Below the pieces are notes generated by a model. It ran no database searches and was not told the DNA's origin. It worked only from the letters and a program-made list of their open reading frames with translations. From positions 1 to 46,306 of the forward strand of contig CALKDK010000013.1 of assembly GCA_938084055.1 (NCBI GenBank): DNA of 46,306 bases, read 5' to 3'. Below are positions 11,303 through 33,795 of this stretch, piece after piece; position 1 is the first letter of the stretch; the number at the start of each line of letters is the position of its first letter. Made by a program: the position numbers and the translations under genes. Origin of the DNA: an uncultured Luminiphilus sp. (GTDB lineage: Bacteria > Pseudomonadota > Gammaproteobacteria > Pseudomonadales > Halieaceae).

Positions 11303-11743
11303 ATGGAAGTTGCCAACAAACTCAATCCAACCGAAGCCCAGATCGAGGGGTTTCTGGACCCCAGCGCGAAGGGGCCTATTTGTATGGTCAATTTGCTCAA
11401 GTTCAGGGAGTATGCCGAGTATGAGGATGGTCGAGAAACATCGCTGTCCGGATTTGAGGCCTATACCCTTTATACAGAGGGCGTGGTCGAGTGTTTGAAG
11501 CAAGTGGGCGGCTACCTGGGTTTTGGCGGGCGGGTAGAGCGTCTTATGCTCGGTGAAGTGGAAGAGTTGTGGGATATGGTGGCGCTGGCCGTCTATCCGT
11601 CGCGTCAGGCGATGCTGGAAATGATCCAACTCCCGGCCTATCAGGAGATTCATGTCCATCGGGATGCGGGCTTACTAGGGCAGCTCAATATTGAAACGGT
11701 TGATTTTGAGGGCAGTTGGCTGCCGCGGATGACAAGAAAATAG
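11303..11743 (+). CDS. DUF1330-like dimeric alpha/beta-barrel protein
   Basis: The frame is open from 11198, but ATG 11303 has a clear ribosome site (AAAGAGGA) and gives a 146-residue protein that begins with a normal N-terminus. The phrases GPICMVNLLKFRE, YTLYTEGVVECLKQVGGY and VYPSRQAMLEMIQLPAYQEIHVHRDAGL fit the DUF1330/ABM-like dimeric alpha-beta barrel fold. These small proteins often act as isomerases, monooxygenases or accessory proteins, but no catalytic residues can be assigned. It resembles the membrane-anchored protein at 22743: MVN near the start, and Y.SR.A..E.I..P near the end. That gene lies behind the other copy of the operator. Confidence 0.8.
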   Translation: MEVANKLNPTEAQIEGFLDPSAKGPICMVNLLKFREYAEYEDGRETSLSGFEAYTLYTEGVVECLKQVGGYLGFGGRVERLMLGEVEELWDMVALAVYPSRQAMLEMIQLPAYQEIHVHRDAGLLGQLNIETVDFEGSWLPRMTRK

Positions 11744-12815: not shown

Positions 12816-12838
12816 AGAGGTTCTGTGGGGTGTCGTTA

Positions 12839-12856: not shown

Positions 12857-12860
12857 GTAG

Positions 12861-20326: not shown

Positions 20327-21118
20327 TCACGGAGCACCTGTCAGGCTGCAGTGGAGCCGGTTCATGCCTCGGATCCAGCGATCGTAGTCAGCGGTTTTGC
20401 GCTGCATGTATTGCGTCACCTCGGGATGGGGAAGGATTAAGAACGATTCTTTTTCCAGACCTTGAACGACGCTATCTGCAACCTCTTCGGGTTCGAGCAT
20501 GCCGTCAACCGCAGCGGCCTGAAGTCCGCCGTTGTCCATTTGGTCATTTTCGAGGGTCGTCATTGCGGTGCGAACCGCCTGGGGGCAAAGCATGGAAACC
20601 TTGATGCCCTGATGTCCGTAGGTCAGTGCAAGCCATTCGCCAAAACCTACGGCGGCATGTTTGGTTACGCCATAGGCAGCGCCACCGACTTGGTTGAGCA
20701 ATCCTGCCGCCGATGCCGTGTTGAGGAAATAGCCGCTTCCTCGAGCAACCATGCGCGGCACTAAATGCCGTGCTGCATAGACATGCGACATTACATTGAC
20801 CTCCCAGCTGGTCTGCCACTCGGAATCGGGAGACTGCTCGCTGGGTGCCAGGCCCAGCCCGGCATTACTGCAAAAGAGATCGACGGGGCCGAATTCCGAT
20901 TCGGTATTTTCGATGACCCGCTGTATGTCGGCCTCCAAAGCCACGTTTGCCGTCATCGCCTGGCAGCCATTATCGCTGGCTGTCCGGGCAACATTTTCCC
21001 CATTTATATCGACGGCGACGACCTGCCGGGCTTGTTCCCTGACAAACCTCTCTACCAGCGCCCGGCCGATGCCACTGCCCGCCCCAGTTACCACCACCAC
21101 TTTATCTTTAATCTTCAA
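20327..21118 (-). CDS. Short-chain dehydrogenase/reductase
   Basis: This 263-residue classical SDR has the NAD(P)-binding TGAGSGIG (residues 11-18), Asp37-type acidic VAVDIN (favouring NAD), NAG (85-87), and a catalytic set Asn108, Ser136, Tyr149 and Lys153 (YGVTK). The PQAVRTAM block near residue 185 resembles the cofactor-contact loop. It should oxidise or reduce an alcohol/ketone; in this context a hydroxyacyl-CoA or ring hydroxyl is plausible, which is inference. It is the last gene of the minus-strand operon that starts at 23378, 79 bp after the enoyl-CoA hydratase. Confidence 0.9.
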   Translation of the reverse strand: MKIKDKVVVVTGAGSGIGRALVERFVREQARQVVAVDINGENVARTASDNGCQAMTANVALEADIQRVIENTESEFGPVDLFCSNAGLGLAPSEQSPDSEWQTSWEVNVMSHVYAARHLVPRMVARGSGYFLNTASAAGLLNQVGGAAYGVTKHAAVGFGEWLALTYGHQGIKVSMLCPQAVRTAMTTLENDQMDNGGLQAAAVDGMLEPEEVADSVVQGLEKESFLILPHPEVTQYMQRKTADYDRWIRGMNRLHCSLTGAP

Positions 21119-21197
21119 ATCGAATGTCTCCGGTGTTCTGAAAGTCGCGTCAGTGCGCTACCCAGGTTCCATTGAGCGCTTTGTGTTGTCGGTCAAG

Positions 21198-21986
21198 CTA
21201 CGTCGACTGATTGAAAACAGGGCTGCGCTTCTCCAAAAACGCCAGCATCCCCTCACGAGAATCGGGCGTGTCCATATTATCTCTCACGGCTTGGGATTCA
21301 GCAGCCAGCAATTCTGCGAAAGTGCGCTCTTCACTGCCTACGATAACATTTAACATGCTGCGCACGGCCCCTGCGGGTTGCAGCGCCAGTTCCTGGGCAA
21401 GTGCTATGGCACGGCCTTTTAATTCCGACAAGGCCCAGACCTCATGCACCAGCCCTATACGGTAAGCCTCTGGACCCGAAATTTTCTTGGCTCGTAAAAT
21501 CAAATCGAGAGCGTGGTCCCGACCTACGCATCGGGTGAGTCGGGCACTACCTCCCCAAGCCGGCACAGAGCCCAGGTCCATCTCGGGCAGACCGATCTGC
21601 GCACCACTCTCGGCAGCAAGCCTGAAGTGACAGCCCAGCGGTATTTCCAGTCCACCGCCCAGGCAGTAGCCAAAAAGCGTTACGACCGATGGCTTACCCA
21701 TTTGTTCAATCGCCTCGATGAGTCGATGGCGCTGGGCAAAAAGTGCATCTGCGCCGCCTTTTCTCGCCAGCCCCTCCGGCAGTTGCTTGAGATTCATGCC
21801 GACTGAGAAATTATCGTCACCTGCAGCAGTCAGAACCCAACTCCTGATGTCAGGGTTGTTAGCAATGTCATTTACAATGTCTTCCAACTCGTCGATGAAC
21901 GCGAGTGACATACGGTTGTACGGCGGATCGTTGATGGTCACGATGGCGACAGCACCATCATGCAATACAGAGAGCTGTGAGGACAT
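21198..21986 (-). CDS. Enoyl-CoA hydratase (crotonase family), both catalytic glutamates present
   Basis: The frame opens at a GTG (22073) overlapping the previous stop, but the first conserved residues follow ATG 21986, which has AAGGT upstream; I prefer it (262 residues). CoA-binding and oxyanion blocks are DDNFSVGMNLKQL and LFGYCLGGGLEIPLGCHFRLA. Glu114 (GGGLE) and Glu135 (GLPEMDLG) correspond to the two catalytic glutamates of rat mitochondrial hydratase, so real hydratase activity is likely, in contrast to the isomerase-like protein at 8564. It would hydrate the product of the acyl-CoA dehydrogenases of the divergent operon. Confidence 0.9.
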   Translation of the reverse strand: MSSQLSVLHDGAVAIVTINDPPYNRMSLAFIDELEDIVNDIANNPDIRSWVLTAAGDDNFSVGMNLKQLPEGLARKGGADALFAQRHRLIEAIEQMGKPSVVTLFGYCLGGGLEIPLGCHFRLAAESGAQIGLPEMDLGSVPAWGGSARLTRCVGRDHALDLILRAKKISGPEAYRIGLVHEVWALSELKGRAIALAQELALQPAGAVRSMLNVIVGSEERTFAELLAAESQAVRDNMDTPDSREGMLAFLEKRSPVFNQST

Positions 21987-22069
21987 GGCGTACCTTTTTG
22001 ATGTGGCGGGAGAATTCGGTTTGGGTAGAAGGCGCCCAGATTTCAAGTTGTTCCGTATCGCTAACTGAA

Positions 22070-22711
22070 TCACGGCATACCGAGGGCTTTTGCCTCCTTT
22101 ACCAGCACCGCTGCCACCGCAGGATGAGCCCTTACCTCGGCGATCAGCGCCGCGAGGCCAGGCCAGCGGCTGCTATCAACCTCGTAGCCCGCATAGGACG
22201 CATTGATGAAGGGTGAGGCGACACTGAGGTCGGCCATGGTGAAGTCACCGAAGAGCCAGCCCCCACCGGAGCTGTGCCCCTCCAAATGGTCCAGCATCGG
22301 TGGCAGGCGGTCGTTGATTATCTTGGCAATCAATTCCTCGTCGGGCTCCTGCTTGAACGCTCTGGGTCGCATAAAGCGCTGGAAAAATATTCCCGCAGCC
22401 ATTTCTGCGACCGCGCCACCGCAAAGCTCTTCAAGCCAGTCGGCCCGAGCCCGGGCAGCAGGATCCCCGGGGTAGAGCGCAGGTTCGGGGTAGGCGCTTT
22501 CCAGGTAACGACAGATGACCTTTGAGTCAGACAGGGTCAAGCCGTCGTTTATGAGGGCGGGTATCTTGCCCAGGGGATTGATCGCCAAGTAGTCCTTATC
22601 ACCTGAAAAAGGCATTTGCGGCACCACCTCGTAGGGGATTCCCTTGATATCGAGGGCGATGAAAACTTTTCGGACAAAGGGCGATCCATGCACGCCATAA
22701 ACTGAAATCAT
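22070..22711 (-). CDS. Glutathione S-transferase, standard two-domain
   Basis: This 213-residue protein has normal GST length. The N-domain has VYGVHGSPFVRKV with a Ser near the glutathione site (SPF, residues 10-12), NPLGKIPAL with the cis-Pro block, and SDSKVICRYLE for gamma-Glu binding. The C-domain has GDFTMADLSVASP, the usual N-capping/hydrophobic staple. The pattern is close to theta/beta-like bacterial GSTs. It should use glutathione in the cytoplasm, for conjugation, dehalogenation, ether cleavage or isomerisation. The second gene of the minus operon, 31 bp after the DUF1330-like gene. Confidence 0.92.
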   Translation of the reverse strand: MISVYGVHGSPFVRKVFIALDIKGIPYEVVPQMPFSGDKDYLAINPLGKIPALINDGLTLSDSKVICRYLESAYPEPALYPGDPAARARADWLEELCGGAVAEMAAGIFFQRFMRPRAFKQEPDEELIAKIINDRLPPMLDHLEGHSSGGGWLFGDFTMADLSVASPFINASYAGYEVDSSRWPGLAALIAEVRAHPAVAAVLVKEAKALGMP

Positions 22712-22742
22712 TGTAGCTTCCTCTGCTGCTCGGCCCCGGGTT

Positions 22743-23378
22743 TTAAGAGCCCCTCAACTTGAGATGACCCAACTTATCAATCAGTAGTGCCAGTGAGAAG
22801 AGCATTAAGCCAAGCAGCAGCCTCGGGTCTCCCAGATTTATACCTGGCTCTATCGGATACGCGATGGTCTTCTCCAGGGCTGCGAGTTTGAACTCGTGCG
22901 GACCGAGAATATCGGGGTTGCTTATGATTTCCATAAATGCGCGACGGCTGCGGTACCGCATAAGTGCCCCGTCGGTCCAGCGCTCTGCCTGTTCAATGCC
23001 ATGAATATCAATGACGGTATAAACCGCCGGGCCAGCGATAACGGGATGACAGGCGCGTTTCAGCAGCTCCGGCCACATATGCTGCATGTAGAGTCCCAGG
23101 AGGGTGTCGGCGTCTGCGGATGGTGGAGCACCCGCCGCTGGAGGGGGGCTTTGGTTTTTGTCGAGGGCGTTGACCATTATGAACTCGCGACCCGTATCCT
23201 CGCGCAGAAATTTTGCGTAGTAGTCCACGCGCTCTTGAGGCAGCCCATTGGCCGTCATGGTGGCAATGAATCGATTCACCTCAGTCTCACTCAAGGGCCC
23301 TCGCAGGTCGGTGTACCAGACAAAAAACAGGACGTAAGCAAGTGAGGTTGCCAGCCAGGCTTTTGAGGAAAAGCGCAT
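22743..23378 (-). CDS. Membrane-anchored DUF1330-like protein
   Basis: The frame opens far upstream, but ATG 23378 with GGGGGT six bases before it gives MRFSSKAWLATSLAYVLFF, a proper N-terminal membrane segment (211 residues). The middle (REFIMVNALDK ... YTVIDIHGIEQAERW ... YRSRRAFMEIISNPDILGPHEFKLAALEK) resembles the free DUF1330-like protein at 11303. A last hydrophobic segment (LLLGLMLFSLALLIDKLG) suggests a second span, so the barrel domain probably lies on one face of the membrane between two anchors. It is the first gene of the minus operon, about 110 bp downstream of a strong promoter and operator. Enzymatic role unknown. Confidence 0.75.
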   Translation of the reverse strand: MRFSSKAWLATSLAYVLFFVWYTDLRGPLSETEVNRFIATMTANGLPQERVDYYAKFLREDTGREFIMVNALDKNQSPPPAAGAPPSADADTLLGLYMQHMWPELLKRACHPVIAGPAVYTVIDIHGIEQAERWTDGALMRYRSRRAFMEIISNPDILGPHEFKLAALEKTIAYPIEPGINLGDPRLLLGLMLFSLALLIDKLGHLKLRGS

Positions 23379-23490
23379 ATTGCACCCCCGTCGATTAGGA
23401 TTGGGCCGGTCGCGAACTGACCACGGGTATCGTCTGTCCCGTTGGGAATTCCATAGCTCTGCTGCTACTATCGCATACCCCAACTACTCC

Positions 23491-23519
23491 TGTATAGTTA
23501 TTGACATTAAATATGTCAA
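23491..23519 (-). promoter_or_regulatory. Sigma-70 type promoter of the minus operon
   Basis: On the minus strand TTGACA (23519-23514), a 17-bp spacer, then TATACA (23496-23491). The -35 is perfect and the -10 is one base from consensus. It points to the operon starting at 23378. The 29-bp operator covers the -35 and the whole spacer. Confidence 0.75.
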
Positions 23520-23524
23520 TAACT
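23496..23524. promoter_or_regulatory. 29-bp perfect palindromic operator between the divergent operons
   Basis: AGTTATTGACAT (23496-23507), centre TAAAT, ATGTCAATAACT (23513-23524): 12-bp arms with no mismatch. It sits between genes at 23378 (minus) and 23574 (plus) and overlaps the minus promoter. A similar element with the same 5-bp centre is found at 8343-8373. The likely binder is a dimeric repressor, with the TetR protein encoded in the right-hand operon as first candidate; this is inference. Confidence 0.75.
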
Positions 23525-23573
23525 GGGTTACAGCCTCGTTTAAGACGATAACTACGGAGCCTGGAGGGCGGTT

Positions 23574-24617
23574 GTGTCGAATGAAGAGCGATTAATGCTG
23601 GTGGGTGGTACCGCGTCGCCGTATACCCAAAAAATGATTGCCCTGCTGCGCTATCGGCATATTCCCTATGCCATGACCTGGGGACAGCCAGAAGAGGTTT
23701 GCGCGTCGCTGGGGATCGCCCCTGTAAAGCCTAGCTTCATGCCCACGGTATTTTTCCCAGAGGGGGACAGTCTTAGGGCAGAATGCGATTCAACACCCAT
23801 CATTCGCCGGCTCGAGACCATGTACCCCGGTCGGTCCGTGCTCCCAAACGATCCCGCGCTGGCTTTTCTTGACTATCTCATCGAAGATTTTGCTGATGAA
23901 TGGTGTACCAAGTATATGTTCCATTATCGCTGGCACCCCGCTGCTGACGCCGATAATGCAGGCACGTTGCTGCCCTATGGATTTGACGTCAGTCTTGACG
24001 CTGCGGTTCACGAGCAATTTAAGGATTACATAACCAAACGTCAGGTTGAGCGGCTTTATGTGGTCGGGTCAAACGATACGACAGCACCCATTATTGATGC
24101 CAGCTATCGCCGTTTTTTGGCGGCTATGGAAAGTCACTTGGCCAATCAGAACTTTATGTTGGGGTCGCGGCCCGGTGCCGGTGACTTTGCTCTGTATGGG
24201 CAGCTGACCCAGCTGGTAGGGTTTGATCCTACTCCCAGAGCCATTGCCCACGAGATTTCGTCGAGGACTGTGGCCTGGGTTGACCGGATGGCTGATCAGA
24301 GTGGCCTTGATCCGGTTGTTAATGACTGGGTCTCACTGGAGGACCAGCCAGTAAGTCTCGGCGCGATTTTGGCAGAGCTGGGCCGAGTGTATGCGCCTGC
24401 CCAACTGGCCAATTCGGCAGCTGTACAGGCCGGAGAGAAAAGCTGGACCTGCGATATCGATGGTGTCCAGTGGGCACAGAAAACCTTTCCCTATCAGGCG
24501 AAATGCCTCGCCTGGACCCGGCAGGCGTATTTGGCTCTCTCTGACACCGATCGGGAGCGTGTGGACGGGGCGCTGGCGGGAACTGGAATTGAAGCCATGC
24601 TCGTGACAGACAGTTAA
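23574..24617 (+). CDS. Three-domain GST-like protein with C-terminal extension
   Basis: This 347-residue protein starts at GTG 23574 with GGAGGG five bases upstream. The N-domain begins LMLVGGTASPYTQKMIALLRYRHIPY, with SDTPIIRRLE-like STPIIRRLETMYPGR for the glutathione gamma-Glu contact. The helical domain has FADEWCTKYMFHYRW (FHYRW at 116-120) and NFMLGSRPGAGDFALYG. The last 80 residues (GEKSWTCDIDGVQWAQKTFPYQAKCL...) form an extension not found in normal GSTs but present in the proteins at 4347 and 25601. It is the first gene of a nine-gene operon. Glutathione chemistry is likely by fold but unproven; a CoA- or lipid-linked substrate is suggested by the neighbours. Confidence 0.85.
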   Translation: MSNEERLMLVGGTASPYTQKMIALLRYRHIPYAMTWGQPEEVCASLGIAPVKPSFMPTVFFPEGDSLRAECDSTPIIRRLETMYPGRSVLPNDPALAFLDYLIEDFADEWCTKYMFHYRWHPAADADNAGTLLPYGFDVSLDAAVHEQFKDYITKRQVERLYVVGSNDTTAPIIDASYRRFLAAMESHLANQNFMLGSRPGAGDFALYGQLTQLVGFDPTPRAIAHEISSRTVAWVDRMADQSGLDPVVNDWVSLEDQPVSLGAILAELGRVYAPAQLANSAAVQAGEKSWTCDIDGVQWAQKTFPYQAKCLAWTRQAYLALSDTDRERVDGALAGTGIEAMLVTDS

Positions 24618-24642
24618 TCATTGACCGTTTAAGGAAGCAGCC

Positions 24643-25590
24643 ATGACAGCGCGTCCCATGGAAAATCGTGTCACCCAAATACTGGGCACGGATTACCCCA
24701 TCATTCAGGCACCCATGGGCTGGATTGCGCGGTCACAGCTGGCCTCGGCCGTCAGCAATGCCGGGGGTATGGGAATCATAGAAACCGCATCCGGCGAGTT
24801 TGACATCATCAAAGAAGAGGTCGCCAAAATGCGCGACCTTACCGATAAACCCTTCGGCATGAATGTGGCGCTTTCCTACGTGAAGGGCTCGAATATTATT
24901 GACTTCGTTATCCAGCAGGGCATCAAGTTCGTTACCACCTCCTCGGGCAGTCCGGCGGTCTGTACCGCGGCATTCCAGGAGGCTGGTATTAAGGTCTTTC
25001 ATGTGGTGCCTACCTTGGACCTTGCTTTAAAGGCCATCGATTGTGGCGTGGACGGACTTGTGGTGGAAGGCGGGGAGGGCGGGGGATTTAAAAATCCCAG
25101 CCCCGTTTCCAGCATGGTCCTGTTACCACTGGTTCGGTCTCGGACGGAGCTTCCCATTATTGCCGCCGGTGGCATGTGCGACGGGCTGTCCATGGCCGGC
25201 GCATTCGCCATGGGTGCCGAGGGGTTGCAAATGGGTACGCGCATGTTGAGTTGCGCCGAATCACCTGTGCACAGCAACTGGAAACAGGCGGTTGTAGACG
25301 CCCGTGAGACGGACACCGTGTTTCTCAATCAGCAGTCTCGTCCTGCCCTGCGGGCCCTGCGTACCCAGCGTACCGCTGAATTGCTGCCACAGGGTGCATT
25401 TAATGCCATGGAACATTTCGCCGGTGTCAAGGAGCTCTATTTCGGGGGCGACATGGAAGCCGCGATCCCACTCTCGGGGCAGGTGGTGGGTCGCATTGAC
25501 GAGGTCAAGTCAGCCCGGGATATTCTTGAGGAAACGGTCTCTGGATTTTACCGGGAGCTGGGGCGGTTACAGGAGCAGTACGGTCACTGA
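24643..25590 (+). CDS. Nitronate-monooxygenase-like FMN oxidoreductase lacking the usual catalytic His
   Basis: This 315-residue TIM-barrel flavoprotein is of the 2-nitropropane dioxygenase/nitronate monooxygenase superfamily: YPIIQAPMGWIARSQLASAVSNAGGMGII at the start, KFVTTSSGSP, VVPTLDLALKAIDCGVDGLVVEGGEGGG, PIIAAGGMCDG and GAEGLQMGTRML (FMN phosphate site). In nitronate monooxygenases and FabK the segment reads E-x-E-A-G-G-H with a catalytic His; here it is EGGEGGGF, with Phe149 in its place. A nitronate oxygenase is therefore unlikely. An enoyl- or ring-reductase acting on a CoA ester, as reported for NMO-like proteins in steroid catabolism (IpdC), is a better guess but inference. Second gene of the operon, 25 bp after the first. 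Confidence 0.85.
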   Translation: MTARPMENRVTQILGTDYPIIQAPMGWIARSQLASAVSNAGGMGIIETASGEFDIIKEEVAKMRDLTDKPFGMNVALSYVKGSNIIDFVIQQGIKFVTTSSGSPAVCTAAFQEAGIKVFHVVPTLDLALKAIDCGVDGLVVEGGEGGGFKNPSPVSSMVLLPLVRSRTELPIIAAGGMCDGLSMAGAFAMGAEGLQMGTRMLSCAESPVHSNWKQAVVDARETDTVFLNQQSRPALRALRTQRTAELLPQGAFNAMEHFAGVKELYFGGDMEAAIPLSGQVVGRIDEVKSARDILEETVSGFYRELGRLQEQYGH

Positions 25591-25600
25591 GCTCGAAGAC

Positions 25601-26704
25601 ATGCCAATCTTCAGGAGATCACCCCTTATCCTGTACGGGTCCAGTATTTCCTACTTTACCGGTAAGCTCGAAAATTACTTTCGCCTGCGGGGCATACCCT
25701 ACCAATTCCAGTCCATGCAGTTCCCCGCTATGAAACACACGCTGGAAGACGCGGTTGGGCTGATGCAGATGCCCGCCGTGCAACTGGCCGATGGTCGGTG
25801 GATGACGGATACCACCAAAATCATTGACTGGTTTGAGGCGCAGCTCGGTGGGAATCCGCTGGTTCCCGATGACCCCGCACTGGCCTTTGTCTGTCATTTG
25901 CTGGAGGACTGGGCCGACGAATGGTGGTGGCGTCCTGCAATGCACTACCGTTGGCACTATCCTGAGGGCGCTCGCTTCGCGTCGAGACATCTGGCCTCAG
26001 AGCTGACCGGCGCTATCAGGCTGCCATTGTGGTTGAAGTGTCGGTACTTCATGCACCGGCAGCGGCGCGGCTACACCACGGGTGACGGCCTGAACCCGGA
26101 GAATATTCCAGCAGTCGAAGCCCAGGTGCACCGACTGTTCGAACAGTTGCAGAATACTTTCAGTTCGCGGCCTTTTTTGATGGGCGCCAAGCCGTCTCTT
26201 GCCGACATCGGTTTTTCCGGACCTTTCTTTCGCCATTTTGCCCTGGACCCTGTGCCCCTGACTATTCTGCGCGAAAAAGCTCCTGCGGTGCTGGCGTGGG
26301 TTAAACGCCTTTGGGAAGCGCGCCTCGACAGGACTGAGGGTGGATGGTGCACCCACCTGCCGGCAGATCTCGAACCCATGCTGGAAGATATGGGAAGGAA
26401 TTACCTACCCTACCTGTGTGCCAATGCCGAGGCGGTCCGCTCAGGTCGACGGCGCTTTGACGTCGAGGTTGATGGTGTTTTTTATCGGCGTGCTCGCTAT
26501 TCTCATTATCGCGTCTGGTGTTTGAGCGAATTGCGCTCAAGATTTGCGCGGCTCGGCGAAGCCGATCAGCAGGCTGTGATATCCCTGCTGGAGGCCAGGG
26601 GATGCTGGCAACCCCTATGGCGAACCCGGGATCTCCCGCTTTTGCCCAGCCAGGAAGCAGAGCTGCCCTTCCGGGGCGGCACCAAGATGATAGGCGTCAA
26701 CTAA
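25601..26704 (+). CDS. Three-domain GST-like protein with C-terminal extension
   Basis: The frame opens inside the previous gene, but ATG 25601, ten bases after its stop, gives a normal 367-residue start (MPIFRRSPLILYGSSISYFTG). The N-domain ends with DTTKIIDWFE; the helical domain has the block LLEDWADEWWWRPAMHYRW (MHYRW at 114-118) and FLMGAKPSLADIGFSG. An extension of about 110 residues follows (RRRFDVEVDGVFYRRARYSHYRVWC..., then SELRSRFARLGEADQQAV). The layout is that of the proteins at 4347 and 23574. Having two of these in one operon suggests either two successive steps or a heterodimer. The exact start is somewhat uncertain because the ribosome site is weak. Confidence 0.85.
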   Translation: MPIFRRSPLILYGSSISYFTGKLENYFRLRGIPYQFQSMQFPAMKHTLEDAVGLMQMPAVQLADGRWMTDTTKIIDWFEAQLGGNPLVPDDPALAFVCHLLEDWADEWWWRPAMHYRWHYPEGARFASRHLASELTGAIRLPLWLKCRYFMHRQRRGYTTGDGLNPENIPAVEAQVHRLFEQLQNTFSSRPFLMGAKPSLADIGFSGPFFRHFALDPVPLTILREKAPAVLAWVKRLWEARLDRTEGGWCTHLPADLEPMLEDMGRNYLPYLCANAEAVRSGRRRFDVEVDGVFYRRARYSHYRVWCLSELRSRFARLGEADQQAVISLLEARGCWQPLWRTRDLPLLPSQEAELPFRGGTKMIGVN

Positions 26705-26742
26705 GGTTCGATGAACGGTACAAGACAGGAAGGGATGAGCAC

Positions 26743-27957
26743 ATGGGATTCGCAGTAAGTGACAGTGTTATCGCGCTCAATGAACAACTAAAGACTTTTA
26801 TGGACGCGCATATTTATCCCAGGGAGCAGGACTGGCATGACTGGTGTCTCGATCCGGAGAATCTTTGGCAGGTGCCGCCCTGGTATGACCAATTGCGCGA
26901 TCAGGCGCGGGAAGAAGGGTTATGGAACCTGTTTCTGCCCCACGAATATGAACCCTGGAGTCCGGGTCTGAGCAATGTCGAGATAGCCCCCCTTTTCGAA
27001 ACCATGTCCAAGGTAATGTGGGCGCAGGGTGTCTTCAATTGCAACGCGCCTGATCGTGGGAACATGGAAGTTCTGGCTAAATACGGTACCGAAGCGCAGC
27101 AGAAGGAGTGGTTGGAACCTTTGTTGGCGGGGCAGATCCGCAGCGCCTACGCCATGACCGAGCCACAGGTTGCGTCCTCAGACGCGACCAACATGGAACT
27201 GGAAATCCGCAGGGACGGCAATGACTACGTTTTGAATGGGCGCAAGTGGTGGACGACCGGCGCTGTCGGTCCTCGCTGCAAGATCATGCTGGTGATGGGG
27301 AAGTCCAATCCTGAAAACGAGCGTCACCGACAGCATTCCACAATACTGGTGCCCCGTGATACGCCCGGAGTAACGTTGGTGCGAACGCTTCGGGCCTTTG
27401 ACAGCCTGCACTCTCCGGGAGGGGAAGCGGAATTACTGTTCGAAAATGTGCGGGTTCCGGTCAGCAATATGATCAAGGGGGAGGGCTGTGGCTTTGAAAT
27501 AGCCCAGGGACGACTGGGCCCCGGGCGTTTTCAATATGCCATGGGCTTTGTGGGTATGGCCCAACGCTGCCTGGAACTGATGTGCAGCCGTGCCCAGGAA
27601 CGGGTGGCATTCGGCGAGGCCCTGATTAAAAAAACCTCAGTTCAGCATGAAATAGCCCGCAGTCGATGTGATATCGAACAGTGTCGACTGTTAACCCTGC
27701 AAGCCGCTGAGGTCATGGATCGGGAAGGTCTTGATGGCGCACGGCCCTACATTTCAATGATAAAAATCGTCGCGCCGAAGATGGCACAGGAAGTCGCCGA
27801 TCGGGCCATGCAGATTTTTGGTGGTATGGGGGTGTGTCAAGACACCCTCATCCCGCAAGTTTTTACCGTGGGTCGGTTCTGTCGCATCGCCGACGGTCCT
27901 GACGAAGTGCATATGTCCCAGTTGGGGAAGATGACGGCCCGCGAGCTCAACAAGTAA
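26743..27957 (+). CDS. Acyl-CoA dehydrogenase (ACAD11/long-chain-like)
   Basis: The frame opens upstream at 26518, but ATG 26743, preceded by AGGAAGGGATG, gives 404 residues with a normal ACAD N-terminal helical domain. Recognisable blocks are AMTEPQVASSDATNMEL (FAD contact), LNGRKWWTTGA, FENVRVPVSNMIKGEGCGFEIAQGRLGPGR, and IFGGMGVCQDTLIPQVFTVGRFCRIADGPDEVHMSQLGK. These match the ACAD10/11-like long-chain group. It would introduce a double bond into an acyl-CoA, passing electrons to ETF. It sits between the GST and the acyl-CoA synthetase genes, as expected for one catabolic route. A second ACAD lies at 32581. Confidence 0.93.
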   Translation: MGFAVSDSVIALNEQLKTFMDAHIYPREQDWHDWCLDPENLWQVPPWYDQLRDQAREEGLWNLFLPHEYEPWSPGLSNVEIAPLFETMSKVMWAQGVFNCNAPDRGNMEVLAKYGTEAQQKEWLEPLLAGQIRSAYAMTEPQVASSDATNMELEIRRDGNDYVLNGRKWWTTGAVGPRCKIMLVMGKSNPENERHRQHSTILVPRDTPGVTLVRTLRAFDSLHSPGGEAELLFENVRVPVSNMIKGEGCGFEIAQGRLGPGRFQYAMGFVGMAQRCLELMCSRAQERVAFGEALIKKTSVQHEIARSRCDIEQCRLLTLQAAEVMDREGLDGARPYISMIKIVAPKMAQEVADRAMQIFGGMGVCQDTLIPQVFTVGRFCRIADGPDEVHMSQLGKMTARELNK

Positions 27958-27972
27958 CCAGGGAGCATGATA

Positions 27973-28344
27973 ATGATTCGAACAGTTTTACTGCTGATGA
28001 CACTGATGACCTCTGCGCCCCTCCTTGCGGAAAATCTTGATGGATTTTGGCAACACGAGAAGCAGCCGTTGTGGATAGAAGTTTCCACGGCTGGTGGCGG
28101 GGCTAAGGTGGTGCGCAACGACAATAAGCCCGATGCAGTTGGATTTGAAATGCTCCGTAACCTGGAGAGGCAAGGAGGCGAGGGTGACGGTTGGACTGGG
28201 GAAGTCTACGCAGCACAGCTCGGGGAATTTAAATCTGCCAAAATTTCTTTGCTGGGGGCAGATCTGATGCAGTTCAAAGTCAAGGTGGGTTTTATGAGTC
28301 GTACCGTTGAGTGGCAGCGTGTAAAGTCAGTACCGGAGTCTTAG
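27973..28344 (+). CDS. Small exported DUF2147-like protein
   Basis: The frame starts at ATG 27967, but the GGGA site is too close; ATG 27973 gives MIRTVLLLMTLMTSAPLLA, a clean signal peptide (123 residues). The mature protein starts ENLDGFWQHEKQPLWIEV and resembles DUF2147: a small beta-rich protein starting with GxW, often placed beside fatty-acid degradation genes. It may bind a hydrophobic ligand in the periplasm, which is inference. It lies 15 bp after the acyl-CoA dehydrogenase in the operon. Confidence 0.7.
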   Translation: MIRTVLLLMTLMTSAPLLAENLDGFWQHEKQPLWIEVSTAGGGAKVVRNDNKPDAVGFEMLRNLERQGGEGDGWTGEVYAAQLGEFKSAKISLLGADLMQFKVKVGFMSRTVEWQRVKSVPES

Positions 28345-28382
28345 CTGCCAAAAAACATAACGGAAAAGGATTTGGAATTGAA

Positions 28383-30203
28383 ATGGCGGGTTTGTTTCAG
28401 AACATAAAGGAAGTTGTCCGAGTGTTTGGCGAGGCGCGGCACATTTTGCCCGCGCTCAAATTCAAGATGCCAAAACACGAGGAGCCTGTATCGTTGGTCA
28501 GCGTGTTTGAGGACACTGTGGCCGCTTACCCTGATAGAACAATGCTGATTTTTGAGGGTCGTGAATGGACTTACAGTGAATTTAACGCTGCAGTCAATCG
28601 TTTCGCCCGCGTGTTGCAAGGGCAGGGTGTCACGCGAGGTGATAGCGTTGCATTGTTCATGGAGAATCGTGCCGAGTTCATTCTCAGCCTGTTTGCTGTC
28701 ATGAAAATTGGCGCAGGCTGCGCGCTCATCAATAATAGCTTGACGGGAGCGGGCCTGGTTCACTGTGTTGAGGCGACGGGAGCCAGCCATTTTATACTCG
28801 GAGAAGAGCGTACCGCGGTGGTAGAGGCCTGCCGAGAGGCGTTGGGATTAAGCCAGCAGGGGGCATATCTCTGGTTTGCTGATGCGGGTGAGGGCGACTG
28901 TCCTGAGTGGTGTGTCGATGCAAATGCCACTATGGCTGGGTGTGATTCCGACAACATGCCGAGCACCCGCGAGATCACTGCGGGTGAGGTGGCGTTCTAT
29001 ATTTTCACATCGGGTACCACTGGACTGCCCAAGGCGGCCATTATGCTGCACAGGAAAGCACTTGCCGCAAGTACCGTACTTGGGCGTTTGGGCTTTCGGG
29101 TCAAACCCACGGATCGCCTCTACCTCTGTTTGCCCATTTACCACCTCACGGGCCTGGGCCCCGGACTGCTAGCCTTTGTCCTGTCGGGTGCTTCGGTCTA
29201 TGTTCGGCGTCAGTTTTCGGCCTCAAAGTTTTGGTCCGAAGTACAGCAGTTCAGAACCAACAGTTTCATATATGTCGGTGAGCTTTGCCGGTACCTGAAT
29301 CAGCAACCCGAGCGTCCTGAGGAAAGAGACAACCCTCTGGAAAAAATGCTGGGTAATGGCCTGCGTCCCGATGTATGGGACGCCTTCAGGCAGCGTTTCG
29401 GCGTGGCGAGGATCTGTGAGATTTACGGCAGCAGTGAGGGCAACGTTTCTTTTGCCAACCTCTTCAACAAGGATAAAACCATAGGAGCGACCTTCGCCAA
29501 GGTAGCGCTGGTCAAATACGATCAGGAAAATGACGAGATCCTTCGTGATGCGAAGGGGTGTTGTATGGAGGTCAGCAAGGGGGAGCCGGGTTTGCTGTTG
29601 GGAGAGATCACCTCTGACTATGCATTTGATGGTTACACGAATAAAGAGGCGACGTACAAAAAGGTTGTCGGTGACGTCTTGAAGGGGGGAGATCGGTGGT
29701 TCAATACGGGTGATCTGGTGCGGGAAATTGACGTTGGGTTTGCATTGGGACTGAGGCACTTCCAATTTGTTGATCGTACGGGCGATACGTTTCGCTGGCG
29801 TGCAGAGAACGTTTCAACCAATGAGGTGGCGGAAGTCCTCAATCAGCACCCCCAGGTAGCGGTAGCCAATGTCTACGGTGTCGAGGTGCCTGGTGTTGAA
29901 GGCCGCGCCGGTATGGCCGCACTCGCGGTGGAGTCGCCAGATATGTTTGACCTTGAGGCATTTACAGCATTGGTCGACAGGGAGCTTCCCGTCTATGCGC
30001 GACCAGTGTTCATAAGGTTGCAGGAGTCTCTTCAAACAACCGGCACGTTCAAGCTGGTCAAGACCGAATTGCGGGAAGAAGCTTTTCATCTGGAGCGTAC
30101 CGGGGGTGACTTCGTGTACGTGAGACCGCCCTCCGGAGGGGGTTATCAACGCCTTGAGCAAAATTTCTACCTGAGTTTATGCCAGGGTACAGCGGGTTAT
30201 TAA
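28383..30203 (+). CDS. FATP-type long-chain acyl-CoA synthetase
   Basis: The frame opens upstream, but ATG 28383 gives a normal 606-residue protein. It belongs to the AMP-forming synthetases of the FATP/SLC27 type. The ATP loop is FYIFTSGTTGLPKAAI (about 206-220); later blocks are YLCLPIYHLTGLGPGLL, ICEIYGSSEGN, WFNTGDLVREIDVGF, and FVDRTGDTFRWRAENVSTNEVAEVL, the last strongly typical of FATPs. It should activate a long-chain or bulky carboxylic acid to its CoA ester at the membrane, the entry step of the pathway encoded here. The catalytic C-terminal Lys is plausible in TFKLVKTELRE. Neighbours are 38 and 31 bp away. Confidence 0.92.
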   Translation: MAGLFQNIKEVVRVFGEARHILPALKFKMPKHEEPVSLVSVFEDTVAAYPDRTMLIFEGREWTYSEFNAAVNRFARVLQGQGVTRGDSVALFMENRAEFILSLFAVMKIGAGCALINNSLTGAGLVHCVEATGASHFILGEERTAVVEACREALGLSQQGAYLWFADAGEGDCPEWCVDANATMAGCDSDNMPSTREITAGEVAFYIFTSGTTGLPKAAIMLHRKALAASTVLGRLGFRVKPTDRLYLCLPIYHLTGLGPGLLAFVLSGASVYVRRQFSASKFWSEVQQFRTNSFIYVGELCRYLNQQPERPEERDNPLEKMLGNGLRPDVWDAFRQRFGVARICEIYGSSEGNVSFANLFNKDKTIGATFAKVALVKYDQENDEILRDAKGCCMEVSKGEPGLLLGEITSDYAFDGYTNKEATYKKVVGDVLKGGDRWFNTGDLVREIDVGFALGLRHFQFVDRTGDTFRWRAENVSTNEVAEVLNQHPQVAVANVYGVEVPGVEGRAGMAALAVESPDMFDLEAFTALVDRELPVYARPVFIRLQESLQTTGTFKLVKTELREEAFHLERTGGDFVYVRPPSGGGYQRLEQNFYLSLCQGTAGY

Positions 30204-30234
30204 CGCCCTTGGATGGGTTAGCGGGGAGTACAGG

Positions 30235-30528
30235 ATGACGATTGGTGTAATTGCAACGATAACCGTACAGCCGGGCAAAAATCAGGAGTTTGAAACGGCA
30301 TTTCTTGCGCTGGCCCAGCAGGTCCGTGAGTTGGAGCCCGGTAATTTATTTTATGCCCTGCATCGAAGCACCACGGACCCACAGGTTTATAAAGTCATGG
30401 AGCAGTATGTGGATGGGGCAGCGCTGAAGGCCCACGGTGAAACCGCACACTTTGCCGCCGCCCTGCAGCAGGTTGGAACATTGCTCGCGGGCCCTCCAGA
30501 GGTAGAGCAGCTTGATGTCGTGGGTTAG
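30235..30528 (+). CDS. ABM-domain (antibiotic biosynthesis monooxygenase-fold) protein
   Basis: This 97-residue protein begins IGVIATITVQPGKNQEFETAFLALAQQVRELEPGNLFYALHRS, and continues DPQVYKVMEQYVDGAALKAHGETAHF, a standard ABM dimeric alpha/beta-barrel sequence. Members range from cofactor-free monooxygenases to heme-degrading enzymes; short versions of this type often have no shown activity. With the DUF1330-like proteins at 11303 and 22743 it makes three ferredoxin-like barrel proteins behind the two related operators. Operon gene, 31 bp after the synthetase. Confidence 0.88.
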   Translation: MTIGVIATITVQPGKNQEFETAFLALAQQVRELEPGNLFYALHRSTTDPQVYKVMEQYVDGAALKAHGETAHFAAALQQVGTLLAGPPEVEQLDVVG

Positions 30529-30545
30529 TCGAAATCAAAGAGCAT

Positions 30546-30576
30546 GGTGACCGCCGATATGAACACAGTGGTCACC
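30546..30576. repeat. Inverted repeat before the TetR gene
   Basis: GGTGACC (30546-30552) and GGTCACC (30570-30576) are perfect 7-bp arms 17 bp apart, ending 14 bp before the TetR start. It could be an mRNA hairpin over the ribosome site region or a secondary operator. It does not share the TGACAT core of the two main palindromes. Confidence 0.4.
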
Positions 30577-30590
30577 CCGGGAGCTGATTA

Positions 30591-31172
30591 ATGGTGTCCA
30601 CTGAAGATAGCGCCACGGACGGCAGGCGCCAGAGGAGCGAGCGGAGTCGATTGGCGATTATCGAGGCTACTCTGGCGCTCATGTATGAAGGCGTGCTCAT
30701 TCCAACTGCACAGCAGATCGCGGACAGAGCTGGTGTGGGCATTCGTTCCTTCTTTCGCCACTTTGGTGATATGGACTCGCTTTTTACTGAGGTTGATGAA
30801 CACGAGAGGGCCACCTATGAATCGCTTTTCGCTGCAGTAGATCTGTCGGGAGCGCTCGATGAGCGCATTCCCCGAATGATTGAGGTCTTCTCGGAGGGCT
30901 TTGAGTCAGTGACAAATATGGTGCTTTCGACCCTGGCGATGCGCTGGCGATCCGAAGTACTTCGTAAAAATTACGCCCGGAACCAGCGACAACTGGCCAA
31001 AAAGATAGAGCAATGGTTGCCCGAGGTTAAACAGTTGGGACGAGAGGATCGTCATGCTATTGAAGCCATTATGTCCTTTGACTTTTGGTATCGCCTCCGG
31101 GAGCACCAGGGGCTTGGCAAGAAGGCATGTCGGAAGCTGCTCCACCGTCAGGTAGCAAAGTTTTTCTCGTAA
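30591..31172 (+). CDS. TetR-family transcriptional regulator
   Basis: This 193-residue protein has an N-terminal TetR DNA-binding domain: RSRLAIIEATLALMYEGVLIPTAQQIADRAGVGIRSFFRHFGDMDSLFTEV, with the helix-turn-helix at about residues 38-60. The C-terminal part should bind a small ligand; it is helical with many charged residues (RKNYARNQRQLAKKIEQW). TetR regulators in such operons usually repress until a CoA ester or the substrate appears. It is encoded inside the operon at 23574-32567, so autoregulation through the 23496 operator is likely, and control of 8343 is plausible. ATG 30591 follows GGGAGCTG. Confidence 0.92.
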   Translation: MVSTEDSATDGRRQRSERSRLAIIEATLALMYEGVLIPTAQQIADRAGVGIRSFFRHFGDMDSLFTEVDEHERATYESLFAAVDLSGALDERIPRMIEVFSEGFESVTNMVLSTLAMRWRSEVLRKNYARNQRQLAKKIEQWLPEVKQLGREDRHAIEAIMSFDFWYRLREHQGLGKKACRKLLHRQVAKFFS

Positions 31173-31196
31173 GATTAGGAATGTCAGAGTTCTGCA

Positions 31197-32567
31197 ATGA
31201 CTACACAATTTGAGGATCAGGGGGGTGCTGCCGCATCGGACCCCAGTCGTGTGGTGCGGTGGCTCACATCCAGACTCATGACGCGCTTTTCACGGCCCGA
31301 GCGCAGTATAAAACAACGCGCGTCGGCTGAGCGTCAGCGACGTAAGGCGGGTTTGCCGCATCGCGTGGAATACTTTCACCAGGTTGACGATGGTTACAGT
31401 CATCTTGCGGGGCAAGTCCTGGAAAGATTCCGGGAGCGATATGATGTGGAGTTGGTATGTCATCTGGTTAACGCTCCCAGTGGCCGTAACGCCGCCGAGC
31501 CCGAAATGCTGTCGCGTTTGTCTCGCTACGACGCCCGTCAGATCGCGCCCGGCTATGGACTGGACTTTCCTGAGCACACGGGGCCGCCCATTGAAGAACT
31601 GCTCTGCAAGGCACGGGGTATTCTGGCAGCGCACCCTCCAGCAGATCGCGTGGCACTGGTTGAGCCCACGAGTCGTGCTTTGTGGCGAGGCGATCACGAG
31701 GCAATGGATGCGCTGGTGGCTGATCATGGGCTCGCAACTGATGCAGCTACAGCGAGCGCTTTCGCCGCTGGTGATACCCGCAGGGCGTCGTTACACCACT
31801 ATTCCGGGGCCATGTTTTACTACGGTGGCGAATGGTATTGGGGTGTCGACCGACTTTACCATCTTGAGCAGCGACTAGCCGAACTGGCCTTGGACAGGCA
31901 GGCGGGTCAGGCGTTGTTGGCACCCAGGCAGGAGCCTGATTGGGGTGCTGTAAAAGACGACGGCTCCCTCACATTGGAGTTCTTTGCTTCACTGCGGAGT
32001 CCCTACACCGCTGTCATTTTTGATCGGGCGGTCGCTTTGGCCAGGGACTCCGGTGTTACGCTCAAGCTTCGGCCGGTACTACCTATGGTCATGCGTGGGG
32101 TACCGGCAACCCGTACAAAAGGGATGTATATCTTCATGGATGCCGCCCGGGAGGCGAGGGCGTCTGGCGTCCGCTACGGAAATTTTTATGACCCAATCGG
32201 AGATCCGGCGCGACGCTGCTACTCGCTGTATCCCTGGGCCGCCGCGCGGGGTAGAGGCACAGAGTTGCTGTCCAGTTTTCTCACCCATGCTTTTGCCCTC
32301 GGCGTAAATACCCTGACGGAGCCGGGTCTGAAAAAAGTGGTGGAGGCGGCAGGTCTCGAATGGTCCGAGGCCAAGACCTATTTAGGCAGTAAGGGTTGGG
32401 AGGGTATGCTGGAAGAAAACCGTGTCGCTATGTATGAGTCAGGTCTCTGGGGTGTTCCCAGCTTTAGGTTGCTGGACGGGGGCGGTGCACCGGTAGTGGC
32501 TCTGTGGGGCCAGGATCGACTTTGGGTGATCGCTCGGGAAATAAAACGGCTGCTGGCAGCTGAATAG
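31197..32567 (+). CDS. Tandem DsbA/HCCA-isomerase-like (kappa GST-fold) protein
   Basis: This 456-residue protein carries two copies of a thioredoxin-like fold. The first copy (about 55-240) begins HRVEYFHQVDDGYSHLAGQVLERF. The second (about 255-456) begins LTLEFFASLRSPYTAVIFDRAV, followed by LKLRPVLPMVMRGVP, YGNFYDPIGDPARRC, FLTHAFALGVNTLTEPGLKKVVEAAGL and GLWGVPSFRL. The second has the SPY motif with the Ser typical of 2-hydroxychromene-2-carboxylate isomerases and kappa GSTs; the first is more divergent. Glutathione-dependent cis/trans isomerisation or ring opening is the natural guess. About 50 basic N-terminal residues (RFSRPERSIKQRASAERQRRK) precede the first domain. Last gene of the plus operon, 24 bp after tetR. 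Confidence 0.8.
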   Translation: MTTQFEDQGGAAASDPSRVVRWLTSRLMTRFSRPERSIKQRASAERQRRKAGLPHRVEYFHQVDDGYSHLAGQVLERFRERYDVELVCHLVNAPSGRNAAEPEMLSRLSRYDARQIAPGYGLDFPEHTGPPIEELLCKARGILAAHPPADRVALVEPTSRALWRGDHEAMDALVADHGLATDAATASAFAAGDTRRASLHHYSGAMFYYGGEWYWGVDRLYHLEQRLAELALDRQAGQALLAPRQEPDWGAVKDDGSLTLEFFASLRSPYTAVIFDRAVALARDSGVTLKLRPVLPMVMRGVPATRTKGMYIFMDAAREARASGVRYGNFYDPIGDPARRCYSLYPWAAARGRGTELLSSFLTHAFALGVNTLTEPGLKKVVEAAGLEWSEAKTYLGSKGWEGMLEENRVAMYESGLWGVPSFRLLDGGGAPVVALWGQDRLWVIAREIKRLLAAE

Positions 32568-32580
32568 GTGCCAAGCCGCC

Positions 32581-33795
32581 CTACCAGGGCGCATTCCCCA
32601 CCGGATCCTGCACTAGTTTGCGCGCCACGGACATTCTATGAACCTCATCGGGCCCGTCATAAATTCGTGCGTAACGGGCTTCACGGTACATGAACTCCAG
32701 AGGGGTATCTTCGGTAACCCCGAGGGCACCGTGAACCTGGATAGCCCGGTCAATCACGTTATGTAACATGCGCGCTCCCCAGAATTTTATGAGCCCAATT
32801 TGAATGCGGGCCTCATCACCGGCGTCCATTACACGGGCAGCATCGAGTGTCATCAGCCGAGCGGCCTGGATCTCAGCCGCCGATTCGGCAATGTAACGCT
32901 GAATCTCCCCCTTCTCTGACAACAGGGAGCCATGGGCATAACGCTGGCCCGCGTAGTTGCACATCAGCTCGAAGGCTCGCTGAGCCTGCCCGAGCCAGCG
33001 CATGCAATGAAATATGCGTCCCGGCCCGAGCCGTTTCTGGGCTATTGCAAAACCCCTGCCGCGCTCTCCCAACAGGTTTGCGGCGGGGACGCGCACATTA
33101 TCGAGCCGGATCTCACAATGGCCGCCTACGGTATCGCCCATGGTGCGAACGACGCGTTCAATGCGGTATCCCGGGGTATTGGTGGGGACGATGATGGCTG
33201 AAAACTTGCGATGCCGCTGCGCTTCAGGCTCGGTGTCGCAAAACACGGTAGTGAAGGCGGCTGCATTGGCGCCCGAGGTAAACCACTTTTGGCCATTAAT
33301 CACCCATTCATCGCCGTCCAACACGGCCTTGGTCTGCATGAGTGTTGGATCCGAGCCGGCAACGTCCGGCTCGGTGAGTCCAACCGAGGGATAAATCTCT
33401 CCGGCTACGAGGGGCTCCAGCCAGGCACGCTTGTGTGCCTCGCTGCCAAATTGATGCAGCATGATGGAGTCCTGCATGGACAATGATCCCACCGCCATCT
33501 GGCCAAAATAAGACCGACCAATGATTTCATTGAGCTGGGCAAACATTAGGAAGGGCAGGCCGCCACCGCCCAGTTCAGACGGATGCCCCAAAGCCCACAG
33601 CCCCTCTTTCTTGGCCCGTGCCTTGAGCCCCACCAGAGCTTGATGGCCGCCCTCGCCCAGCAGCACCGATTCCAGGGGGATCACCGTGTCATCGATAAAG
33701 GCCTTCATGCGGGCTTTGAGTTCCGCCAGTTGCAGGTTCTCGTCGCCACTGGTCTGGGGAGCATTTTTTCCCATAGTTCGTCTCTCGTCAGTCAT
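32581..33795 (-). CDS. Acyl-CoA dehydrogenase
   Basis: This 404-residue protein starts at ATG 33795 (or ATG 33774, MGKNAP). The FAD and substrate blocks are SVGLTEPDVAGSDPTLMQT, VINGQKWFTSGA, IRLDNVRVPAANLLGERGRGFAIAQKRLGPGR, and IQVHGALGVTEDTPLEFMYREARYARIYDGPDEVHRMSVARKL. It is of the same broad group as the protein at 26743 but clearly distinct. It ends only 13 bp from the convergent end of the plus operon, without a clear terminator between them, so antisense read-through is possible. It may form a transcript with the permease upstream (47-bp gap). Confidence 0.93.
   Translation of the reverse strand: MTDERRTMGKNAPQTSGDENLQLAELKARMKAFIDDTVIPLESVLLGEGGHQALVGLKARAKKEGLWALGHPSELGGGGLPFLMFAQLNEIIGRSYFGQMAVGSLSMQDSIMLHQFGSEAHKRAWLEPLVAGEIYPSVGLTEPDVAGSDPTLMQTKAVLDGDEWVINGQKWFTSGANAAAFTTVFCDTEPEAQRHRKFSAIIVPTNTPGYRIERVVRTMGDTVGGHCEIRLDNVRVPAANLLGERGRGFAIAQKRLGPGRIFHCMRWLGQAQRAFELMCNYAGQRYAHGSLLSEKGEIQRYIAESAAEIQAARLMTLDAARVMDAGDEARIQIGLIKFWGARMLHNVIDRAIQVHGALGVTEDTPLEFMYREARYARIYDGPDEVHRMSVARKLVQDPVGNAPW

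Follow-up and report, generated by a model that had tools for sequence, protein, structure and literature searches.

Gene content of the two divergent operons

The DNA examined here, referred to as the window, comprises 46,306 nucleotides (positions 1 to 46,306 of contig CALKDK010000013.1, designated C13) from the genome of a Halieaceae (OM60/NOR5) bacterium, an uncultured Luminiphilus sp. (GCA_938084055.1; G000), which has a size of 2.92 Mb in 79 contigs and is 83% complete. Positions 20327-33795 had been predicted from the sequence alone to contain a glutathione-linked acyl-CoA catabolic cluster arranged as two divergent operons of four and nine genes, and both this arrangement and the enzyme types were confirmed with Pfam and NCBIfam. 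The minus-strand operon encodes, from its far end, a short-chain dehydrogenase (SDR), an enoyl-CoA hydratase, a glutathione S-transferase (GST1) and TMabm, a protein with two hydrophobic stretches. The gene order of the plus-strand operon is GST2, an NMO/FabK-like protein, GST3, the acyl-CoA dehydrogenase ACAD1, a DUF2147 protein, a FATP-type acyl-CoA synthetase, an ABM-family protein, a TetR-family regulator and DsbA2, a tandem protein resembling kappa-class GST and 2-hydroxychromene-2-carboxylate (HCCA) isomerase. Next to this operon, a second dehydrogenase (ACAD2) and an amino-acid-permease-type (APC) transporter are encoded on the minus strand; a TonB-dependent receptor is located past the SDR.

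17405..20122, minus: TonB-dependent receptor beside the SDR (PF00593/PF07715)
20327..21118, minus: SDR (PF00106)
21198..21986 (open reading frame extends to 22073), minus: enoyl-CoA hydratase (PF00378)
22070..22711, minus: GST1, 213 aa (PF13417)
22743..23378, minus: TMabm, two hydrophobic stretches and a ferredoxin-like domain (no Pfam match; alignment, model, fold search)
23574..24617, plus: GST2, large serine-type GST (PF13410/PF13417; alignment)
24643..25590, plus: NMO/FabK-like flavin mononucleotide protein (PF03060; PDB 7l00, 7.8e-59)
25601..26704, plus: GST3, large serine-type GST (Pfam scan, family alignment)
26743..27957, plus: ACAD1, ACAD10/11-family dehydrogenase with FQYAMG for IHHCMR (PDB, tree, linkage)
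27967..28344, plus: DUF2147 protein (PF09917, 27.6 bits, cut-off 27)
28383..30203, plus: FATP-type long-chain acyl-CoA synthetase (NCBIfam PRK08279, over cut-off)
30235..30528, plus: ABM-family protein (PF03992)
30591..31172, plus: TetR-family regulator, candidate for the operator described below (PF00440)
31197..32567, plus: DsbA2, tandem kappa-GST/HCCA-isomerase-like protein (PF01323; alignment; structure)
32581..33795, minus: ACAD2, ACAD10/11-family, HCMR and catalytic Asp kept (motif alignment, tree)
33843..35129, minus: APC transporter, syntenic with ACAD2 (PF13520)

The FATP-type synthetase scores 711.4 bits against the PRK08279 cut-off of 625. The NMO protein is FabK-like, but its score for the curated FabK model TIGR03151 (238.7 bits) is far under the cut-off (453.1 bits), and an identity as FabK was rejected. 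The structural model of TMabm is of middling confidence (pLDDT 73). Unlike HCCA isomerase and kappa-class GST, DsbA2 is a tandem of two domains of this kind (456 aa), whose halves align by profile (E 8.8e-6). In its model (pLDDT 91.4), the C-terminal half superposes on both kappa GST and HCCA isomerase, a comparison that covers this half. An S-P-Y motif is invariant across 33 DsbA2 homologues, and its serine (S268) corresponds to the conserved active-site-loop serine of HCCA isomerase and kappa GST.

A larger gene set in related genomes

The cluster is part of a larger gene set that reaches into the first 11.7 kb of the window, where the following genes are encoded.

1241..2134, plus: DJ-1/PfpI-family protein (PF01965; homologues adjoin GST2/ACAD1 in other loci)
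2139..2513, plus: DUF4345-like small membrane protein (PF14248, 18.8 bits, under the cut-off of 26.5)
2521..4350, plus: putative type-I sulfatase, similar to Pseudomonas-type arylsulfatase (PAS), Cys motif CAPAR (PF00884, 7.5e-62; PDB 1hdh, E 5.5e-119)
4347..5483, plus: GST4, large serine-type GST (PF13417/PF13410; family alignment)
5601..8192, plus: TBDRb, TonB-dependent receptor (PF00593/PF07715)
8564..9247, plus: crotonase-family protein (PF00378, 1.8e-31)
9244..9930, plus: c4, hydrophobic N terminus, linked to the set (no Pfam match; homologues in other loci)
10016..11131, plus: DUF2855 protein (PF11017, 7.8e-94)
11198..11743, plus: small protein without Pfam match (homologues adjoin sulfatase k3)

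Homologues of these genes adjoin TMabm, GST2, DsbA2 or ACAD1 in Luminiphilus, Kineobactrum, Spongiibacter and other loci, in which further companions include sulfatase k3, a metallo-beta-lactamase-fold protein (MBL), a DUF1295 protein, a PTGR-like reductase, alpha/beta hydrolases and a flavoprotein resembling flavin-containing monooxygenases (FMO). GST2 was found in 24 of the 58 genomes searched, and DJ-1 often comes after other genes of the set in relatives' loci. Among cultured relatives, HTCC2080, Kineobactrum sediminis and Spongiibacter thalassae each contain parts of the set. The genes recombine as blocks across loci. Conservation of gene order, which the original prediction had proposed as a check, was borne out in part: blocks such as the divergent TMabm/GST2-(NMO)-ACAD1, accompanied by sulfatases, TonB receptors and DUF2855, recur in relatives, but long collinearity with the window is limited to one of the compared loci (L041). 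Genome G015 encodes a GST3-FATP-ABM-DsbA2-ACAD2 block on contig C18 and a TMabm/GST2/NMO/ACAD1 block on contig C6; unlike this split arrangement, the two blocks are interleaved in the window. In L023, a TonB receptor 85% identical to that at 17405..20122 is located within one 20-kb stretch with an SDR. A plasmid origin was rejected, as a tblastn search of GST2 against 72,556 plasmid records returned one partial match with 27% identity.

Hyphomonas and other Alphaproteobacteria (L095, L096, L098 and L103) encode relatives of DsbA2 near TetR proteins and sulfatase-modifying-factor proteins of the formylglycine-generating enzyme (FGE) type, with a sulfatase nearby in some of these loci.

GST2, GST3 and GST4 are members of a single large-GST family, as seen in an alignment of 57 rows with GST1 as outgroup. 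A Ser, a Pro and an Asp in the N-terminal domain are shared by 55 of 56 rows, and the R-W of an H-Y-R-W block by all 56. The putative sulfatase aligns with 1hdh over 515 residues, and the CAPAR motif read from its sequence matches the type-I (formylglycine) sulfatase motif C/S-x-P-x-R. The protein contains a hydrophobic N terminus, possibly a signal, and a C-terminal hydrophobic stretch.

A shared operator sequence

The palindrome NTGRCA-N7-TGYCAN is present at positions 1215, 8349 and 23501 of the window.

1215..1233, no strand: operator-like palindrome TTGGCA-N7-TGTCAA, exact match, just before DJ-1/DUF4345/sulfatase/GST4
8349..8367, no strand: degenerate operator-like site ATGACA-N7-TGCCAT, before crotonase-c4-DUF2855
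23501..23519, no strand: operator TTGACATTAAATATGTCAA at the divergent TMabm/GST2 junction

The TMabm/GST2 junction at ~23500 reads ATTGACAT-TAAAT-ATGTCAAT, and the palindrome recurs at the corresponding junctions of relatives. The site at 1215 lies outside every open reading frame (ORF) of at least 100 aa, and the site at 8349 satisfies the relaxed pattern while deviating from the strict one by two mismatches. Upstream of GST2, the operator was detected for 23 of 28 scored matches. With GST2 excluded and the remaining genes of 49 loci assigned by a fixed rule, it was located ahead of 56 of the 147 genes that lead an operon, versus 9 of the 178 internal ones (p 3e-14), although GST2's divergent neighbours (TMabm, GSTk78 and some TetR genes) still share the GST2 site in this contrast. 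Control patterns with spacers of N4, N5, N6, N8, N9 or N10 and a reversed pattern yielded 0-2 of 147 leading and 0-3 of 178 internal genes. We rely on this rule-based contrast rather than on an earlier one (64/88 versus 4/131), for which the gene groups had been picked post hoc. Among gene classes, the operator precedes MBL (12/15), sulfatase k3 (8/17), the PTGR-like reductase (3/4), GST3 (3/8) and TBDRb (6/7 scored, the window's own TBDRb not being among the six), compared with 0/28 for DsbA2, 0/22 for ACAD1, 1/10 for FATP and a background of 3% of random 330-bp windows from the same loci.

The G000 genome contains seven strict sites versus two for a backward control pattern, and two of the seven are located in the window before genes of the set; four of the other five lie within ORFs and were set aside as background. 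As the strict pattern also occurs in four of seven outgroup genomes (0-3 sites each), it is not specific to the genomes studied here. Weaker matches in the window are meaningless by number alone, because the ten matches with up to two mismatches (6.3 expected) were equalled in 10 of 100 shuffles. On contig C30 of G000 (~5913; L269), a strict site lies a short distance upstream of an amidohydrolase gene, which is in turn followed by one for a TonB receptor, a possible further member of the regulon.

Two loci, L067 and L073, contain a TetR gene oriented divergently from GST2, with match starts 223-236 bp apart and the operator in both upstream regions. The TetR protein encoded at 30591..31172 is therefore the likely regulator, predicted to bind the shared operator.

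ACAD1 lacks two ligands of the ACAD10/11 phosphate site

ACAD10 and ACAD11 act on 4-hydroxyacyl-CoAs (PMC12440821, PMC11342911). In the mouse ACAD11 model of PMC12440821, R626, H634 and R637 hold the 4-phosphate and D753 serves as the base, and substitutions at such positions are reported there to abolish ACAD activity. The best solved relative of ACAD1 in the PDB is ACAD11 (1.4e-118). ACAD1 keeps the R626-equivalent Arg and the catalytic Asp (RIADGPDEVH when aligned to ACAD11), but reads FQYAMG where ACAD11-type enzymes read IHHCMR, with H634 and R637 replaced by Y and by G, T or M, respectively. QYAM[G/T/M] replaces HHCMR in 24 of 24 genes of the ACAD1 clade. ACAD2 reads IFHCMR and retains the upstream Arg, HCMR and the catalytic Asp, and its motifs RLGPGRIFHCMR and YDGPDEVH are present in 6/6 rows of the ACAD2 clade.

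In a tree of 69 rows, the 25 rows with FQYAM (24 genes, since the window gene was entered twice) are monophyletic with a support of 100/100 and nested among HHCMR lineages, within a group of 47 rows (98/92) to which human ACAD11 also belongs. Human ACAD11 is one of several long-branch rows whose placement was flagged as unsure. The nearest outgroups of the FQYAM clade (L180 and L177-179) retain IHHCMR and encode, in the fetched stretch, an APH-kinase-like protein with 27-31% identity to references; IHHCMR is also kept in two proteins with 60% identity found beyond the order. ACAD1 descends from the ACAD10/11-LvaC family, whose enzymes remove a 4-phosphate from acyl-CoAs, and is an altered member in which two phosphate ligands were lost. 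Because of this loss, it probably handles a different 4-substituent or catalyzes plain dehydrogenation. Two further ACAD10/11-family proteins (L188 and L189), encoded a few kb from an APH-kinase-like gene, contain RLGYGRLRHGMH, a second case in which the phosphate motif has changed in nature.

The genomic company of the FQYAM branch differs from that of its relatives. Among 21 distinct FQYAM loci outside the window, a GST of the set is present in 19 and an APH kinase in one, versus none and eight, respectively, among 16 further loci of the ACAD10/11 family that exclude the ACAD2 lineage (12 HHCMR, two VHHAMR and two LRHGMH), counts that are not independent, as the loci come from related genomes. 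For this comparison, L050 was dropped as it shares a contig with L025, the ACAD2 lineage was counted apart, and L128 (G032) provided no readable ACAD. On the contig of the latter (G032:C35; L128, L213 and L244), several stop codons interrupt the GST2 and ACAD1 frames, reflecting either decay or an assembly error.

ACAD1 was detected at ≥72% identity in 17 of the 58 genomes searched, including its own. In 15 of the 17, GST2 is encoded on the same contig at a distance of 86-2135 bp; the exceptions are G039, with GST2 on another contig, and G021, in which ACAD1 lies close to the end of its contig and GST2 gave no match. Across the order, 12 of 293 genomes yielded a match at E 1e-150, three of which encode only an HHCMR-type protein. 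Phylum-wide (398 genomes, 1e-160), the only matches apart from the genome of the window itself were two proteins of the HHCMR type. The FQYAM branch is thus uncommon beyond the genus.

No APH kinase was found in the window (best match E 0.025). Contig C6 of G000 (73385-76398; L147) encodes an APH kinase and, ~1.3 kb away, an ACAD10/11-family protein with RLGGGRVHHAMR (C6:73385/75337), possibly an LvaA/LvaC-like pair. As this kinase lies on C6, it could serve ACAD2 in trans.

Proposed function and alternatives

The gene content, its recurrence across genomes and the shared operator lend good support to a glutathione-linked acyl-CoA catabolic cluster. More specifically, we tentatively favour, at somewhat less than an even chance, a catabolic regulon under TetR-type control that acts on a lipophilic sulfate ester containing an epoxide or an activated double bond. 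This ester would probably be derived from phytoplankton and carry a carboxyl group, either present from the start or formed later. After TonB-dependent uptake, the sulfate would be stripped by an exported sulfatase and the product activated to its CoA thioester by the FATP-type synthetase. The serine-type GSTs and the kappa-like DsbA2 might then use glutathione for an addition, isomerisation or removal at the unsaturated or epoxidised centre, the FabK/NMO-like protein could perform a reduction, and ACAD1 or ACAD2, the hydratase and the SDR would lead into beta-oxidation. We infer the order of these steps, and sterol sulfates, oxylipins and chlorosulfolipids are guesses at candidate substrates. 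A more far-reaching and quite unlikely extension is that ACAD1 represents a new ACAD10/11 chemistry, in which sulfate or glutathione supplied by the substrate or the GSTs, and not a kinase-added phosphate, is the 4-leaving group, so that sulfated or glutathione-conjugated acyl-CoAs would enter beta-oxidation via an undescribed redox-neutral, flavin-assisted elimination.

Several observations weigh against a sulfate-ester regulon. Sulfatases also work on polysaccharides, and the one encoded here could serve another substrate. The HTCC2080-type loci L021-L023 encode GST3-FATP-DsbA2-ACAD2, with neither reference sulfatase in the fetched stretch, although a sulfatase is present on another contig (L126, with GST2 and ACAD1) of the genome bearing L023. 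The sites at 1215 and 8349 are not conserved among the few loci scored, with DJ-1 preceded by the operator in one of five loci and crotonase in one of three, the window itself in both cases. The scarcity of sites upstream of FATP and DsbA2 is expected within operons and is no proof of co-regulation, and the operator precedes only 8 of 29 scored TetR genes, the regulator being assigned by proximity alone. Furthermore, the FQYAM loci L142 (G039; neighbours NMO and SDR) and L172 (G297; neighbours DsbA2, TetR and MBL) lack GSTs of the set nearby, whereas the ACAD2 lineage retains HCMR, yet GST3 or GST2 is present in 5/5 distinct loci outside the window. GST company alone therefore does not equate to motif loss, and ACAD10/11-family enzymes appear to have joined the GST set at least twice, with the motif kept once and lost once.

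Catabolism of oxylipins or lipid peroxides, with sulfate not obligatory, is a possible but clearly less probable explanation. Here, GSTs would take 4-hydroxy-alkenals, enones and epoxy acids, reductases would saturate the products, FATP would activate them, and ACAD2 together with a trans-acting kinase, such as that on C6, would remove the 4-oxygen as phosphate, while the sulfatases would serve parallel substrates under a common regulator. This is consistent with the intact motif and catalytic Asp of ACAD2 and its location with GSTs, the kinase-ACAD pair on C6, the operator upstream of PTGR-like reductases and the reported use of 4-hydroxyacyl-CoAs by ACAD10/11 (PMC12440821, PMC11342911). The lack of a convincing kinase match in the window, the two ligands lost in ACAD1 and the operator shared with sulfatase genes argue against it.

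Degradation of the side chain or rings of steroids, sterol sulfates or terpenoids is unlikely. The set includes a sulfatase, some loci encode an FMO-like flavoprotein and a DUF1295 reductase weakly similar to Steroid_dh, and steroid degraders have been reported among the Halieaceae (PMC5790920). Contig C10 of G000 (82802-97823; L143 and L144) also contains three KshA_C matches over the cut-off, which suggests that the genome encodes a 9,10-seco steroid pathway separate from the cluster. However, KshA was detected in 9 of 17 ACAD1 genomes versus 16 of 41 others (58 genomes, Fisher p 0.39), and three of the eight ACAD1 genomes without a KshA match are 93-100% complete (G016, 100%; G004, 97%; G017, 93%). 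Since KshA occurrence does not track ACAD1, the cluster is not tied to the 9,10-seco pathway, and the match to a steroid route considered in the original prediction found no support.

Even less probable is a role in detoxification or envelope-lipid remodelling, in which the GSTs, DsbA2 and membrane proteins would counter a lipophilic toxin and the beta-oxidation genes would merely be carried along. The many GSTs and the small barrel and membrane-type proteins would fit such a role, but two TonB receptors, a CoA synthetase, two ACADs, a hydratase and an SDR are encoded in one neighbourhood, and the operator precedes genes for TonB receptors and sulfatase k3. That members of broad paralogous families came together by chance is hardly credible: the SDR, enoyl-CoA hydratase, ACAD and GST families have many members (31 ACAD2-like matches in G000 alone), but the recurrent divergent TMabm/GST2 junction, the clade-specific linkage of ACAD1 and the operator statistics speak against it.

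The role of ACAD10/11 in opening 4-hydroxy acids to beta-oxidation was shown only recently (PMC11342911, 2024; PMC12440821, 2025). The FQYAM branch is a bacterial lineage of this family that lost two of the residues reported to bind the phosphate, located beside sulfatases and large GSTs in place of a kinase, and offers a natural, sequence-defined experiment on the role of the phosphate motif. A sulfate-ester regulon would point to a regulated route by which coastal OM60/NOR5 bacteria may consume a class of sulfated lipids, for whose fate no description was found in the open-licence literature.

Other genes in the window

Between the two halves of the set (11763-14743), the window encodes a Pfam-less protein, a calcineurin-like phosphoesterase and a DUF4956 protein, with no homologues among the compared loci. 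A TIR-domain protein of 687 aa (43524-45587), weakly similar to the TIR domain of Thoeris ThsB, is a possible defence gene.

Comparison with known systems

In agreement with the original prediction that no named pathway contains this set, no description of it was found in the open-licence literature, nor, by title, of a bacterial chlorosulfolipid degradation pathway. The lignin-ether route also considered there was not supported, as GST1 scored 29.5 bits against a beta-etherase cut-off of 440 and GST2 and GST3 gave no match in a run of GST1-3. The sulfatase resembles PAS in its 1hdh match and CAPAR motif, but differs in its C-terminal hydrophobic stretch and in the overlap of its gene with GST4. 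The best sequence match of DsbA2 to HCCA isomerase has an E value of only 0.12.

On the features tested, the region belongs to neither the isoprene nor the 4-hydroxy acid pathways. In the isoprene route, formation of a glutathione adduct and its oxidation are followed by a predicted CoA thioester and GST-catalysed removal of glutathione, and the region shares with this isoprene (Iso)/styrene-type GST system (isoGHIJ) the logic of glutathione chemistry before beta-oxidation (PMC10057887). An Iso-type pathway was rejected, with GST1, GST2 and GST3 scoring 29.6, 19.2 and 29.1 bits against an IsoI cut-off of 300. Neither an isoABCDEF diiron monooxygenase nor an IsoG CoA transferase was found among the window ORFs scanned with Pfam, and in place of the CoA transferase the window encodes the FATP ligase.

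ACAD1 and ACAD2 belong to the dehydrogenase family of ACAD10/ACAD11 and the LvaA-LvaC system and retain its catalytic Asp. The cluster also contains a CoA ligase and an SDR, the latter of which we take to be the counterpart of LvaD. LvaE is the counterpart of the ligase (PMC11342911). Unlike these systems, the window encodes no detectable kinase and the ligands H634 and R637 (mouse ACAD11 numbering, PMC12440821) are replaced in ACAD1, while GSTs, a sulfatase and TonB receptors are added to the set.

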